NCBI RefSeq assembly: GCF_040438885.1
Contig: NZ_CP159218.1
Location: 3,100,001-3,164,000, forward strand
Direction: 5' to 3'
Source: Nakamurella sp. A5-74
GTDB taxonomy: Bacteria; Actinomycetota; Actinomycetes; Mycobacteriales; Nakamurellaceae
Length of the DNA: 64,000 bases
In this document: positions 39,302-45,072 of the stretch, piece by piece
Position numbering within the stretch: the stretch's first letter is position 1
How the letters are laid out: the number at the start of each line of letters is the position of its first letter
Translations under genes and position numbers: made by a program
Notes under the pieces: generated by a model
What the model was told of the DNA's origin: nothing
Databases searched by the model: none
Seen by the model: the letters and a program-made list of their open reading frames with translations, nothing else

Positions 39302-42253
39302 TCAGCTGCAGCCGCTGGTGGAGCCGCAGCCCTCGCAGACGTAGCAGGCGCCTGACGGGCGCATCTTGGTGCCGCAGGTGAAGCACAGCGGCGCATCGGA
39401 GTGCCGACCCGTCACCATCTCCAGCAGCTCCGTTGACGATCCCGCCCTGGTCGGCGCGGCGGCCTTCGCCACCGTCCGGGCAGCCTGGACGTCGTCGGTG
39501 GCCGGGTCGGCGGTCCCCGCCGCGTTGGCTGCCTTCTCCGCGGCCGTCGTCACCGCAGGAGTTGCATCGACCCCGGCCTGCAGGTCGGCGCCGCGAAGAT
39601 CACCACCGACCAGATCGTCGTCGACCGACACGTCCTGCGCCGAGATGTCCTTGCCGGCCACCTGGGCGCTCCGCTCCGAGGCCGAGAAGATACCCAGCTC
39701 GGCACGCTTCTCCAGGGTCAGGTAGTCCAGCGCGATCCGGCGGAACAGGTAGTCCATGACCGAGGTCGACAGCCGGATGTCCGGGTCGTCGGTCATGCCG
39801 GCCGGTTCGAACCGGAGGTTGGTGAACTTGCTGACGTAGCTCTCCAGGGGAATGCCGTACTGCAGACCCACCGACACCGCGATCGAGAAGGCGTCCATCA
39901 CACCGGCCAACGTGGATCCCTGCTTGCCGAGCTTCACGAAGATCTCGCCGAGGCCGTCGTCCGGGTAGGAGCCGGTGGTCAGATAGCCCTCCGCGCCGCC
40001 GACGGTGAACGAGACCGTTTGCGACGGCCGCTTCTTCGGGAGCCGACGACGCACCGGAGTGTGCGGCTCGGCAACGACGGCCGCCACCGTCTTGTTCGTG
40101 CTCCGGTCGTCGTTCTTCTTCGAGGCAGACAGCGGTTGGCCGACCTTGCAGTTGTCGCGGTAGATCGCCAGCGCCTTCAGGCCGAGCTTCCAGCCCTGGG
40201 TGTAGATCTCCGCGACGTCGGCGACGGTGGCGTTCTCCGACATGTTGACCGTCTTGGAGATCGCCCCCGAGATGAACGGCTGGATGGCCGCCATCATCCG
40301 GACGTGGCCCATCGGCGCGATGGTGCGCTCACCCATGGCGCAGTCGAAGATCGAGTAGTGCTCGTGCTTGAGTCCCGGCGCGTCGACGACATGGCCGTTC
40401 TCCGAGATGAACTCGACGATCGCCTCGATCTGCTCCTGCTGGTAGCCGAGCGTCTGCAGGGCCCGCGGCACGGTCTGGTTGACGATCTTCATCGAGCCAC
40501 CGCCGACGAGCTTCTTGAACTTCACCAGCGCCAGGTCGGGCTCGACACCGGTGGTGTCGCAGTCCATCATCAGGCCGATCGTGCCGGTGGGCGCCAGCAC
40601 CGAGGCCTGCGCATTGCGGTAGCCGTGCTGCTCTCCGAGCGAGACCGTCTGCTCCCACGCACGACCGGCGAGCTTGAGGACCGCGGCATCGTCGGTGCCG
40701 ACGGTACGGACCTGATCGCCTGCGGCAGCGTGCTTGCGGATGACCCGCTTGTGGGCGTCGGCGTTGCGGGCGTAGCCGCGGTACGGACCCACCACTGCCG
40801 CCAGCTCGGCCGACCGCTTGTAGGCGGTCGCCTGCATCAGGGAGGTGATGGCGGCCGCGAGGGTGCGACCACCCTCGGAGTCGTAGGCGTGGGCGGTGGC
40901 CATCAGCAGGGCACCGAGATTCGCGTATCCGATGCCCAGCTGACGGAAGTTCCGGGTCGTCTCGGCGATCGGTTCGGTCGGGAAATCGGCGAAGCAGATC
41001 GAGATGTCCATCGCGGTGAAGACCAGCTCGACGGCCTTCGCGAACGTGTCGGCCCGGAAGGTGCCGTCGTCGGCCAGGAACTTCATCAGGTTGAGCGACG
41101 CGAGATTGCACGAGGAGTTGTCCAGGTGCATGTACTCCGAACACGGGTTGCTGGCGTTGATCCGTCCCGACTCCGGGCAGGTGTGCCAGTCATTGATGAT
41201 GTCGTCGTACTGGATGCCCGGATCCGCGCAGGACCAGGCGGCCTCGTTGATCTTGGTGAACAGCTCGCGGGCGTCGACGGTGTCGACGACCTCACCGTGC
41301 ATGCGCCCGCGCAGTGCGAACGGGGTGCCGGCCTCGACCGCGCGCATGAACTCATCGGATACCCGGACGGAGTTGTTGGCATTCTGGTACTGGACCGAGA
41401 CGATGTCCTGGCCGCCGAGATCCATGTCGAAGCCGGCGTCCCGCAGGGCGCGGATCTTGTTCTCCTCCTTGGCCTTCGTCTCGACGAACTCGACGATGTC
41501 CGGGTGGTCGACATCCAGCACCACCATCTTGGCCGCACGCCGGGTCGCGCCGCCGGACTTGATGGTGCCGGCGGAGGCATCGGCGCCCCGCATGAACGAG
41601 ACCGGACCGGAGGCGGTCCCGCCGGAGGACAGCAGCTCCTTGGACGACCGGATGCGCGACAGGTTGAGACCGGCGCCCGACCCGCCCTTGAAGATCAGGC
41701 CTTCCTCGCGGTACCAGTTCAGGATCGAGTCCATGGTGTCGTCGACGGCGAGGATGAAACACGCCGAGACCTGTTGCGGCGACGAAGTTCCGACGTTGAA
41801 CCAGACCGGCGAGTTGAACGAGAAGACCTGGTGCAGCAGCATCCAGGTGAGCTCGTGATCGAAGATCACGGCGTCGTCGTCGGAGGCGAAGTAGCCGTTG
41901 TCGCGACCCGCATCGGTGTACTTCGTGACCACCCGATCGATGATGTCGCGCAGGCTGCGCTCGCGGGTGTCGGACCCGACGGCGCCGCGGAAGTACTTGC
42001 TGGTGACGATGTTGGTCGCATTCACCGACCAGAAATCCGGGAACTCGACCCCGCGCTGCTCGAAGTTGACGGTGCCGTCGCGCCAGTTGGTCATCACCAC
42101 GTCGCGCCGCTCCCAGTCGACCTCGTCGTAGGGGTGCGTCCCGGCAGTGGTGAAGATGCGCTCGAACGCGAGCACGCTCCGCTCACCGTCCGACGCGCCG
42201 CCGGCGCTGGAGCCGTTGCTGGAGCCGCTGCTGGAATGGACGGTCTCGGTCAT
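39302..42253 (-). CDS. nrdJ: Class II (B12-dependent) ribonucleotide reductase NrdJ
   Basis: Makes dNTPs from rNDPs using adenosylcobalamin, oxygen-independent. 983 residues: active-site C165 (SACFIL), NPCSE at 369-373 carrying a second active cysteine, C382 nearby, the ATP-independent radical domain, and at the end a cysteine-rich zinc-ribbon tail (C957, C960, C970, C973, C976, C982) that serves as a reducing module. An Ala/Thr-rich linker precedes the tail. Cotranscribed with nrdR 76 bp upstream. Confidence 0.96.
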   Translation of the reverse strand: MTETVHSSSGSSNGSSAGGASDGERSVLAFERIFTTAGTHPYDEVDWERRDVVMTNWRDGTVNFEQRGVEFPDFWSVNATNIVTSKYFRGAVGSDTRERSLRDIIDRVVTKYTDAGRDNGYFASDDDAVIFDHELTWMLLHQVFSFNSPVWFNVGTSSPQQVSACFILAVDDTMDSILNWYREEGLIFKGGSGAGLNLSRIRSSKELLSSGGTASGPVSFMRGADASAGTIKSGGATRRAAKMVVLDVDHPDIVEFVETKAKEENKIRALRDAGFDMDLGGQDIVSVQYQNANNSVRVSDEFMRAVEAGTPFALRGRMHGEVVDTVDARELFTKINEAAWSCADPGIQYDDIINDWHTCPESGRINASNPCSEYMHLDNSSCNLASLNLMKFLADDGTFRADTFAKAVELVFTAMDISICFADFPTEPIAETTRNFRQLGIGYANLGALLMATAHAYDSEGGRTLAAAITSLMQATAYKRSAELAAVVGPYRGYARNADAHKRVIRKHAAAGDQVRTVGTDDAAVLKLAGRAWEQTVSLGEQHGYRNAQASVLAPTGTIGLMMDCDTTGVEPDLALVKFKKLVGGGSMKIVNQTVPRALQTLGYQQEQIEAIVEFISENGHVVDAPGLKHEHYSIFDCAMGERTIAPMGHVRMMAAIQPFISGAISKTVNMSENATVADVAEIYTQGWKLGLKALAIYRDNCKVGQPLSASKKNDDRSTNKTVAAVVAEPHTPVRRRLPKKRPSQTVSFTVGGAEGYLTTGSYPDDGLGEIFVKLGKQGSTLAGVMDAFSIAVSVGLQYGIPLESYVSKFTNLRFEPAGMTDDPDIRLSTSVMDYLFRRIALDYLTLEKRAELGIFSASERSAQVAGKDISAQDVSVDDDLVGGDLRGADLQAGVDATPAVTTAAEKAANAAGTADPATDDVQAARTVAKAAAPTRAGSSTELLEMVTGRHSDAPLCFTCGTKMRPSGACYVCEGCGSTSGCS

Positions 42254-42329: not shown

Positions 42330-42839
42330 TCAACGGTCCGGCGGGCCGGTGGCGATCGAGGCAGGTTCCGCGGTCGGACCGGTCGCGTCGTCAGGTCGGT
42401 CATGCTGGAGGCGGGCGATCTCGGCGATGAAATCGTCGGCCGACGTGAAGGCCCGGTAGACGGAGGCGAATCGCAGGTAGGCAACTTCGTCGAGATCACG
42501 TAGCGGACCGAGGATCGCCAGGCCCACGTCCTGACTCGGAACCTCCGGCAGACCGATCGCGCGGACCGCGTCCTCGACCTGCTGCGCCAGCAGGGCGAGT
42601 GCGTCCTCGTCGACAGGACGACCCTGACACGCCCGCCGCACACCGTCGACAACCTTGGACCGACTGAACGGCTCGGTGACGCCGCTGCGCTTGACCACAG
42701 CGAGCACAGATTCCTCGACGGTCGTGAAACGGCGCGAGCACGCCTGACAGGATCGACGCCGACGGATGGCCTGACCGTCGTCGACCTCCCGGGAGTCGAT
42801 CACCCGCGAATCTGAGTGACGACAGAATGGGCACCGCAC
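42330..42839 (-). CDS. nrdR: NrdR, ATP-cone transcriptional repressor of nrd genes
   Basis: Zinc-finger plus ATP-cone repressor that senses (d)ATP. VRCPFC at the start gives C3 and C6; C31 and C34 complete the zinc ribbon; the ATP-cone covers about 46-136 ([24 protein letters not shown] region). GTG 42837-42839 has GGGGAGG eight nt upstream, which excludes the longer frame beginning at 43004. A Pro/Ala/Thr tail follows. 169 residues. Confidence 0.96.
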
Positions 42840-42906
42840 CCGCGTCACCTCCCCGTCCGTGCTGATTCCGAGCGATGGTCCGATCGGCCACCGCTGCCGT
42901 GGCGCG

Positions 42907-43046
42907 TTGTCCACATCGATGTCCACAGGTCCACCGAATGGCAGTGGACAGCAGGTGGACAACCGATACCCGCCCGCGTGACGGGCCGACAACCGTGTGG
43001 ACAACCGGTGGATGCATCAGAGTGCGACTACCCCACCTGTGGACAA
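42907..43046 (-). promoter_or_regulatory. DnaA-box array upstream of nrdR-nrdJ
   Basis: Five copies of the actinobacterial DnaA box TTGTCCACA or its complement lie in 140 bp: perfect at 42907-42915, 42996-43004 and 43038-43046; one mismatch at 42919-42927 and 42954-42962. Starts 42954, 42996 and 43038 are exactly 42 bp apart, four helical turns, all in the same orientation. The rest of the 331-bp gap 42840-43170 holds the NrdR box and no gene. Confidence 0.75.
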
Positions 43047-43061
43047 CTTGCACCCGTGTTA

Positions 43062-43077
43062 CCACTAGATGTTGTGG
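43062..43077 (-). promoter_or_regulatory. Candidate NrdR box
   Basis: On the minus strand CCACAACATCTAGTGG, a 16-bp imperfect palindrome with 11 matches to the classical NrdR consensus. It abuts a TTGACC hexamer (43076-43081) that may be the -35 element, so NrdR binding would block the nrdRJ promoter. A second box at the usual spacing is not convincing; only a CCAC half-match at 43033. Confidence 0.7.
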
Positions 43078-43170
43078 TCAACAGCCTATGCAGACTCCAG
43101 CGACGAAGCAAGACGGGAGCGGCGTGTCGACGGGTGGATCGCCCGGACCAAGCAGGCGTGGTCGAGGTAC

Positions 43171-44142: not shown

Positions 44143-45009
44143 GTGCCCACAAGCACCAGCGGTGGCAATGGCAGTGGCAGGAACGACAGCGCACGCGGTG
44201 TGCCGGGCACAGGTACCGGCCGCGGCTCGGACGGTGCGGACGACGCCACCGAGCGCTCGGCCACCGTCCACCAGTTCCCCGAGATGTCGGCCGATGGCTC
44301 CGGCCCCGTCCCGACGGACGACGTGCCGGAGGGCACGGTCGCCGACCAGGTCGTCGAGCGACCACTGCGCCCCCTGACCATGCGTCAGCAGAAGGTCCTC
44401 AAGGTGATCAGGGACTCCGTGGCCCGCCGCGGGTATCCGCCGAGTGTGCGCGAGATCGGCGAGCTGGTCGGCCTGAAGTCACCGTCGTCGGTGGCCCACC
44501 AGCTGACTGCGCTGGAGCGCCGCGGCCTGCTCCGACGCGATCCGAACAAGCCTCGCGCGGTCGATGTCCGGACGGCGGAGGAGCGGGAGCCGGTCGATCC
44601 GGAGATGACGGAGAACGGTCTGTCGGCTCGTCCCACCCCGACGTACGTCCCGGTGGTCGGCAGGATCGCCGCGGGCGGTCCGATCCTGGCCGAGCAGGCC
44701 ATCGAGGACATCTTCCCGCTCCCGCGTGAGCTCGTCGGCGAAGGTGATCTGTTCCTGCTGCGGGTGGTGGGGGAATCGATGATCGACGCTGCCATCGCCG
44801 ACGGCGACTGGGTCGTCGTGCATCAACAGCAAACGGCGGAGAACGGTGAGATCGTCGCAGCGATGATCGACGGTGAGGCCACCGTCAAGTCGCTGCGTCG
44901 CAAGGACGGGCACGTCTGGCTGATGCCGCACAACCCTGCCTTCGACCCGATTCCCGGCGACGAGGCGACCATCCTCGGCCGGGTCGCGGCCGTGCTCCGC
45001 AAGCTCTGA
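44143..45009 (+). CDS. lexA: LexA, SOS repressor
   Basis: Represses SOS genes and self-cleaves with activated RecA. Winged helix at about 80-132 ([20 protein letters not shown]), cleavage site A177-G178 in RIAAGGP, catalytic S212 (GESM) and K249 (TVKSL). About 75 N-terminal residues are a disordered Gly/Ser/Asp-rich extension. GTG 44143 has GGGAGG five nt upstream. Length 288 residues. Confidence 0.97.
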
Positions 45010-45032
45010 CCCCTACACCCGGCAACGGTTCC

Positions 45033-45072
45033 GACGAAGCCCTGACCTCCGATCGGAGGTCAGGGCTTCGTC
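45033..45072. terminator. Perfect 18-bp hairpin between lexA and nfo
   Basis: Arms 45033-45050 and 45055-45072 are fully complementary around GATC, 24 nt after the lexA stop. It lies between two convergent genes and probably works in both directions. Beyond it are two copies of GCCCCACCGGACCGT. Confidence 0.85.

Follow-up and report, generated by a model that had tools for sequence, protein, structure and literature searches.

A candidate composite NrdR/DnaA operator in the leader of the actinobacterial nrdRJ operon

How the supply of dNTPs is matched to the initiation of replication is, to our knowledge, understood mainly in E. coli. The stretch of Nakamurella sp. A5-74 DNA analysed here (64,000 nucleotides, hereafter the window), in which boxes of the DnaA type cluster beside NrdR boxes ahead of an nrdRJ operon, raises the question of whether the replication initiator and the repressor NrdR may share an operator on a B12-dependent ribonucleotide reductase (RNR).

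The nrdRJ locus and its NrdR boxes

The operon lies on the minus strand and comprises the repressor gene nrdR (42330..42841; TIGR00244, 158 bits, cut-off 125) and, downstream of it, nrdJ (39302..42253; NF005122, 1592 bits, cut-off 859), which encodes an adenosylcobalamin-dependent (class II) RNR, so that curated models bear out the gene assignments of the first-pass annotation. The start of nrdR is the GTG at 42839-42841, as read from the sequence and from relatives by its MRCPFC-type N-terminus and the upstream GGGGAGG. Predicted promoter elements, placed by eye on the same strand, are a -35 element TTGCTT (43106..43111) and, 17 bp from it, a -10 element TAGGCT (43083..43088). The word TA-N3-T occurs within 16 bp ahead of NrdR box 1 in 98 of 106 nrdRJ leaders, a count that has no shuffle control, and its distance to box 1 is variable, so that a logo with fixed columns shows it weakly. 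Read along the minus strand, the order of elements is -35, -10, NrdR box 1, a 16-bp spacer, NrdR box 2, the DnaA-type boxes at 42996, 42954 and 42943, the opposite-facing boxes at 42919 and 42907, and nrdR. The array, which had been described as a promoter feature, thus belongs to the leader and lies beyond the predicted promoter. Elsewhere in the window, the end of lexA gave a weak match to the Rfam family naRNA4 (44977-45069; E 0.0011, 36 bits against a gathering score of 59.5), which is perhaps a terminator-like hairpin.

NrdR box 1 (CCACAACATCTAGTGG; 43062..43077, minus strand) was recognised by a pattern match and by conservation in relatives, and probably covers the transcription start. 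By itself it is weak evidence, because the 16-mer CCACTAGATGTTGTGG at 43062-43077, taken as a pattern with up to three mismatches, is expected 0.22 times in the window by chance; conservation in relatives is the test. Among 170 nrdR loci, box 1 was found in all 110 with an adjoining nrdJ and in one of the 60 without, namely a locus (L152) whose contig stops short of the place where nrdJ would lie and which was counted among the nrdRJ leaders. Removal of identical leaders from the 170 loci left 106 nrdRJ leaders and 59 others. In 84 of the 106, the core of box 2, CCACAGGTTG, begins at +35, counted from the first base of box 1 (32 bp from core to core, with a 16-bp spacer); in 18 more it begins at +34 or +36, and in four at +33 or +37. 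The boxes thus stand at the 15-17 bp spacing of an NrdR operator pair, and the C and G 9 bp apart that mark such a pair are kept at box 2 (C97/G94 of 106 leaders); the corresponding C100/G100 at box 1 reflects the fact that both positions were required to call that box. The arrangement is like that of the S. coelicolor nrdRJ operator, for which a structural study of NrdR on DNA describes two boxes, each with conserved G-C pairs 9 bp apart, separated by about three helical turns, and binding of NrdR in the presence of dATP plus ATP (PMC9110341). The same geometry is known from spacer tests (PMC12051234).

The spacer itself (43046..43061, minus strand) holds a palindrome, TTACA-N4-TGTAA, that is degenerate in the window and kept in relatives almost as well as the NrdR boxes (T16 98%, C19 94% and G26 93% of 81 leaders); it may be the site of a third protein or a bending element. 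Elsewhere in the same genome, three further weak NrdR-box matches were found (C1:624993, 1440142 and 4658757), and an NrdR-like box at C1:2590405 was set aside, since it falls inside a long coding frame. A second RNR large-subunit gene, of class I type (nrdA-like; C1:329218-330999), has no recognisable NrdR box and no DnaA cluster nearby. One locus of the relatives, CAMDFY010000012.1, is titled a Bifidobacterium breve MAG, yet its NrdR is 79% identical to that of the window and stands among mycobacterial matches of similar identity; it is perhaps a mis-binned contig.

A phased row of DnaA-type boxes

Farthest from the predicted promoter, an exact TTGTCCACA box (42907..42915, plus strand) and ATGTCCACA (42919..42927, plus strand; pattern match and oriC-derived matrix) form a double box with a 3-bp gap that faces against the others. 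On the minus strand follow CTGTCCACT (42943..42951; oriC-derived matrix), TTGTCCACC (42954..42962) and an exact TTGTCCACA (42996..43004), which are 95, 84 and 42 bp from the core of NrdR box 2, respectively, and are the only boxes of the window leader on that strand beyond box 2; the first two form another double box, with a 2-bp gap and starts 11 bp apart. Box 2 itself (43030..43045, minus strand; core CCACAGGTGG at 43033-43042), identified by its position in leaders, the logo and the dual constraint described below, overlaps with its left half an exact TTGTCCACA at 43038-43046 (minus strand), which makes it likely, as judged from the sequence, that the two form a shared NrdR/DnaA site. A sixth box of this type, TTGACCACA at 43073 (minus strand), overlaps NrdR box 1. 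All five TTGTCCACA-type boxes and the NrdR box listed in the first-pass annotation are therefore present. Its claim of three boxes 42 bp apart holds for their starts (42954, 42996 and 43038, exact and on one strand), but the one at 43038 is NrdR box 2.

Within the 249 bp from 42842 to 43090, six boxes have at most one mismatch, against a mean of 0.13 and a maximum of 3 in shuffled sequence, where none of 5000 shuffles reached 6, and no other 200 bp of the window is as rich in such boxes. Across the 4.75-Mb genome, exact TTGTCCACA occurs 57 times, against 27 for the reversed control pattern, and in this list of 57 the leader is the only site with three exact boxes within 150 bp. Separately, five genome sites carry two exact TTGTCCACA in tandem, the second followed by CC or CT: four with starts 18 bp apart (C1:1019173/1019191, 2475348/2475366, 2772924/2772942 and 3583645/3583663) and one at 19 bp (1368651/1368670). 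These pairs (loci L209, L210 and L212-L214) may represent either another DnaA-type arrangement or a small dispersed repeat.

For the relatives, a matrix was derived from 40 regions downstream of dnaA (presumed oriC), using the sites in them that differ from TTGTCCACA at one position at most, a choice that inflates the sharpness both of the matrix and of the presumed oriC logos. Beyond box 2, 103 of the 106 nrdRJ leaders (three being too short) hold 159 matrix matches, against 19.6 +/- 4.5 in shuffles. Of the 159, 132 have the orientation of nrdR; the matches are spread over 64 leaders, and the other 39 have none. Control regions fall below expectation, both at the 59 nrdR loci without nrdJ (3 matches, with 9.6 expected) and over the 150 bp that precede the promoter (11, with 20.6 expected). 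Counted from the core of box 2, same-strand sites fall at 11-12, 20-22, 31-33, 42-45, 53-57, 63-66 and 75-77 bp, with few between, and the commonest rungs are 32-33 and 42-43. A conserved spacing of 42 bp, whose presence in related nrdRJ loci had been proposed as a check, is ruled out by this distribution: relatives occupy any rung of a ladder of about 11 bp, of which the spacing in the window is one case.

The period can be recovered without the matrix. In 69 leaders, obtained by clustering the 106 at 65% identity, the plain word TCCAC gives a period of 10.9 (n=85, power 59.3); logos were drawn only from sites above the matrix cut-off. Leaders from other orders of the class, 37 from 40 loci, together give 11.0 (words TCCAC and TCCCCA; n=54, power 33.8); of the remaining three loci, two (L231 and L262) have no box and one (L256) was dropped for a misplaced box call. 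The 37 include L226, in which no nrdJ was detected and which was left out of the per-family period and of the box 2 comparison. With one leader per family, 42 families yield 80 sites with a period of 11.0 and a power of 61.0, against at most 13.3 in 2000 jitter controls; leaders share ancestry, so that power values, like Fisher values, overstate independence. This set covers 42 of 47 families, f7, f18, f24, f44 and f45 being the others, and its 15 order-level representatives were chosen by hand as the first genome of the family, except in f10, f11 and f16. The rungs that are filled differ between lineages, which argues for turnover under a constraint on phase rather than plain inheritance.

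The array carries two sequence marks of an oriC-type array, namely the relatives' own oriC 9-mer motif and a same-strand, helically phased spacing. Downstream of dnaA, same-strand spacings in 40 genomes have a period of 10.9 (n=202), and a G precedes the box in 77% of cases, as it does in 86% of the 23 sites at leader offset 32-33. Matrix sites are comparably dense in both places (15 per kb in nrdRJ leaders, 11 per kb downstream of dnaA), and in M. tuberculosis and S. coelicolor TTGTCCACA is given as a DnaA box of high affinity (PMC4285127). The nrdRJ array thus shares the 9-mer, the preceding G and the same-strand ladder of about 10.9 bp with actinobacterial oriC rows, and differs from them in its position in an RNR leader, in its mostly single orientation and in its distance from dnaA, which in eight single-contig genomes is 55-99% of a half-chromosome.

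Box 2 and the distribution of the array

The ladder starts at box 2, where two sets of bases overlap. At this site, T at -3, a base of the DnaA box, is present in 28% of 106 leaders; among the 49 above the matrix cut-off it reaches 34%, and the NrdR half is kept (T 89, G 95 and G 95%). Sites at offset 32-33, selected by the same cut-off, show the reverse, with T at -3 in 95% and next to no information on the NrdR side (T7 0.05 bit, G9 0.04 bit). Since T at -3 is rare and the NrdR half is kept, the first of the three phased boxes is NrdR box 2.

The DnaA-type bases of box 2 are nevertheless under constraint where an array exists, in addition to its NrdR bases, as a comparison of sequences across leaders indicates. 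Between 56 leaders with at least two sites beyond box 2 and 38 with none, a grouping made without box 2 itself and with percentages uncorrected for shared ancestry, T-1 falls from 98 to 53%, the second C from 98 to 68%, C3 from 100 to 58% and A4 from 100 to 79%, and the NrdR half (T7, G9, G11) remains unchanged (50 of 56 leaders with an array, 34 of 38 without). TCCACA stands at box 2 in 53 of 56 leaders with an array, in 9 of 11 with one site and in 12 of 39 with none; three leaders with an array are without it. Positions 5 and 6 also relax where there is no array (G 71 to 55% and 86 to 58%), a change that is not specific to DnaA and is not predicted by the reading of box 2 as a shared site.

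Conservation in sister species, on which the first-pass annotation had made its prediction depend, was found throughout the genus: in all 15 same-genus loci with nrdJ, counting that of the window, one or more matrix sites follow box 2 on the same strand, and the two same-genus loci without nrdJ (L015 and L017) have neither an NrdR box nor a matrix site within 300 bp of nrdR. Among the 42 family representatives, 27 have at least two same-strand sites, 32 have at least one and 10 have none. No same-strand site was found in the sampled representatives of f30, f15 and f12, which appear to be Streptomyces-, Micromonospora- and Frankia-like families, respectively, or beyond box 2 in Lentzea loci. 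The two leaders of apparently Streptomyces-like origin (L240 and L241; S. coelicolor itself lies outside the set) have no matrix site after box 2 and no TCCACA at box 2. From this distribution of sequence motifs, we infer that the composite operator is widespread in Actinomycetes and missing from several families.

Within family f7, which appears to correspond to the Mycobacteriaceae, different RNR operons can be compared. Two NrdR-like boxes 31-32 bp apart precede nrdHIE in 23 of 29 upstream regions (of 30 loci, L294 being class II), and 27 of these promoters, counted after L291 and L292 had been left aside for having no match to the second-box pattern, hold 3 matrix matches in 4050 bp. These class Ib operons (L265-L293) also carry, upstream of nrdHIE, a near-invariant CAC[TA]AGGTGTAGTGT-type box. 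Two f7 genomes that have no complete class Ib nrdE, looked at after the rule had been set, have nrdJ adjoining nrdR (81-82% identical to the window's), together with box 1, box 2 and ladder boxes at offsets 21, 53 and 65 in one and 43 and 55 in the other. In f7 genome G436, where nrdJ stands away from nrdR, the gene keeps box 1 and, 31 bp further along, a site resembling box 2, and no further DnaA box was found, a natural contrast to nrdRJ; a stand-alone nrdJ in another f7 genome, G261, has neither the NrdR pair nor the array. As these two stand-alone genes have no array, the array goes with the nrdRJ operon and not with every nrdJ.

Alternative readings and a proposed mechanism

The sites, their phase, their link to nrdRJ and the double constraint on box 2 are features of the sequences; what they do has to be read from them, and a composite NrdR/DnaA operator in the nrdRJ leader is the probable answer. 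The Streptomyces cluster D78 and datA and DARS of E. coli are titration or nucleotide-state sites. They resemble the nrdRJ array in being DnaA-box clusters outside the origin (datA and DARS are named in PMC11317965), whereas the latter is linked to an operon and also to another operator. It is unlikely that the array is itself such a reservoir, or a site of nucleotide exchange or hydrolysis that times initiation, with nrdRJ a mere neighbour: the singular concentration of three exact boxes and a site density comparable to that downstream of dnaA would suit this role, but the array is not seen in nrdR loci without nrdJ, stands in helical register with the NrdR boxes and, in the eight genomes, lies in the far half of the arc between dnaA and the point facing it across the chromosome, unlike a near-origin reservoir.

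Quite improbable is an extended NrdR operator, in which the downstream boxes would be additional NrdR boxes three or four turns apart. NrdR tolerates three turns and, less well, four (PMC12051234), and offsets 32-33 and 42-43 are the commonest rungs; nonetheless, at 32-33 the right half of the palindrome, which NrdR requires, is not kept, and the rungs at 11, 21, 54, 65 and 76 as well as the TT[GA]T side are left unexplained. An action of the repeats in the leader RNA, as a protein-binding or structured element, has a very low probability. Although the repeats lie in the predicted transcribed leader, predominantly on one strand, and a folding z below -2 is reached by 7 of 58 leaders, a little above chance, the mean z is -0.31, and neither excess folding nor a known family emerged, Rfam at the thresholds applied having given no leader match for the window or for 17 relatives; a helical ladder with missing rungs, whose motif and spacing are the same as downstream of dnaA, also speaks against RNA. 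Finally, TCCACA-rich words are not rare in these genomes, as the 57 exact boxes attest, yet chance or composition can practically be dismissed, being refuted by the window shuffles, by the excess across leaders and by the control regions below expectation.

For the composite operator, it is highly likely that DnaA binds the array, and likely that it thereby controls nrdRJ; that it represses rather than activates is only slightly favoured, direction and timing being inferred from the arrangement. At high dATP, NrdR would occupy box 1 at the transcription start and box 2 shortly beyond it. The mostly one-directional DnaA row would run on the same helical face as box 2, through the transcribed leader and into the left half of that box. 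DnaA, most likely as a cooperative DnaA-ATP oligomer, would nucleate at the near-consensus boxes and form a roadblock or repressor, which at box 2 would either compete with NrdR or act together with it, and the drop in DnaA-ATP after initiation would release nrdRJ and raise dNTP supply. Since the array follows the predicted start and shares bases with box 2, a block to transcription by a DnaA-ATP oligomer is the simplest reading.

A close known system is E. coli nrdAB, where DnaA and NrdR both act at an RNR operon and where double DnaA boxes 2-3 bp apart occur (PMC8203912, PMC11317965, PMC12176259). There, a high level of DnaA-ATP keeps nrdAB repressed, and activation is possible with DnaA-ADP or with little DnaA-ATP (PMC8203912); E. 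coli DnaA prefers such double boxes and binds at nrdA and nrdD (PMC11317965); the 11-12 bp rungs correspond to double boxes of this kind, of which the window has two (42943/42954 and 42907/42919). The E. coli enzyme is, however, of class Ia and from another phylum, with three DnaA boxes in the promoter region (PMC8203912), unlike the long phased row downstream of the nrdRJ promoter, which shares an NrdR box. The impression of novelty in the first-pass annotation is accordingly half sustained: the principle of DnaA control of an RNR is known in E. coli, and the nrdRJ form was not found in print. For the Propionibacterium (Cutibacterium) acnes nrdRJ system, the main text of its paper does not mention DnaA, and no report of a phased, oriC-like array inside the NrdR operator of a class II reductase was found in the open-access literature, a search that leaves out most subscription papers and does not prove absence. 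Within that literature, a long phased array of this kind on a class II enzyme, spread widely across Actinomycetes, appears to be new.

A bolder reading, to which we would give somewhat less than an even chance, is that box 2 is a dual-specificity site, bound by NrdR and DnaA through overlapping bases, which anchors an oriC-like DnaA filament and forms a long-conserved switch between initiation and class II dNTP supply across Actinomycetes, a switch that Streptomyces-like lineages and a few others would have lost. If so, the loss in Streptomyces-like lineages would explain the absence of the switch from the best-studied nrdRJ operon. The ladder provides a rule for the geometry of DnaA arrays outside oriC and makes the coupling of initiation to dNTP supply testable, with natural losses in the apparently Streptomyces-, Micromonospora- and Frankia-like families and in Lentzea, and a natural control in the nrdHIE promoters, which have NrdR boxes and almost no array. 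Sequence comparison thus predicts a direct and widely conserved DnaA-NrdR operator on a B12-dependent reductase, which in many actinobacteria would directly link the start of DNA copying to the supply of its building blocks.
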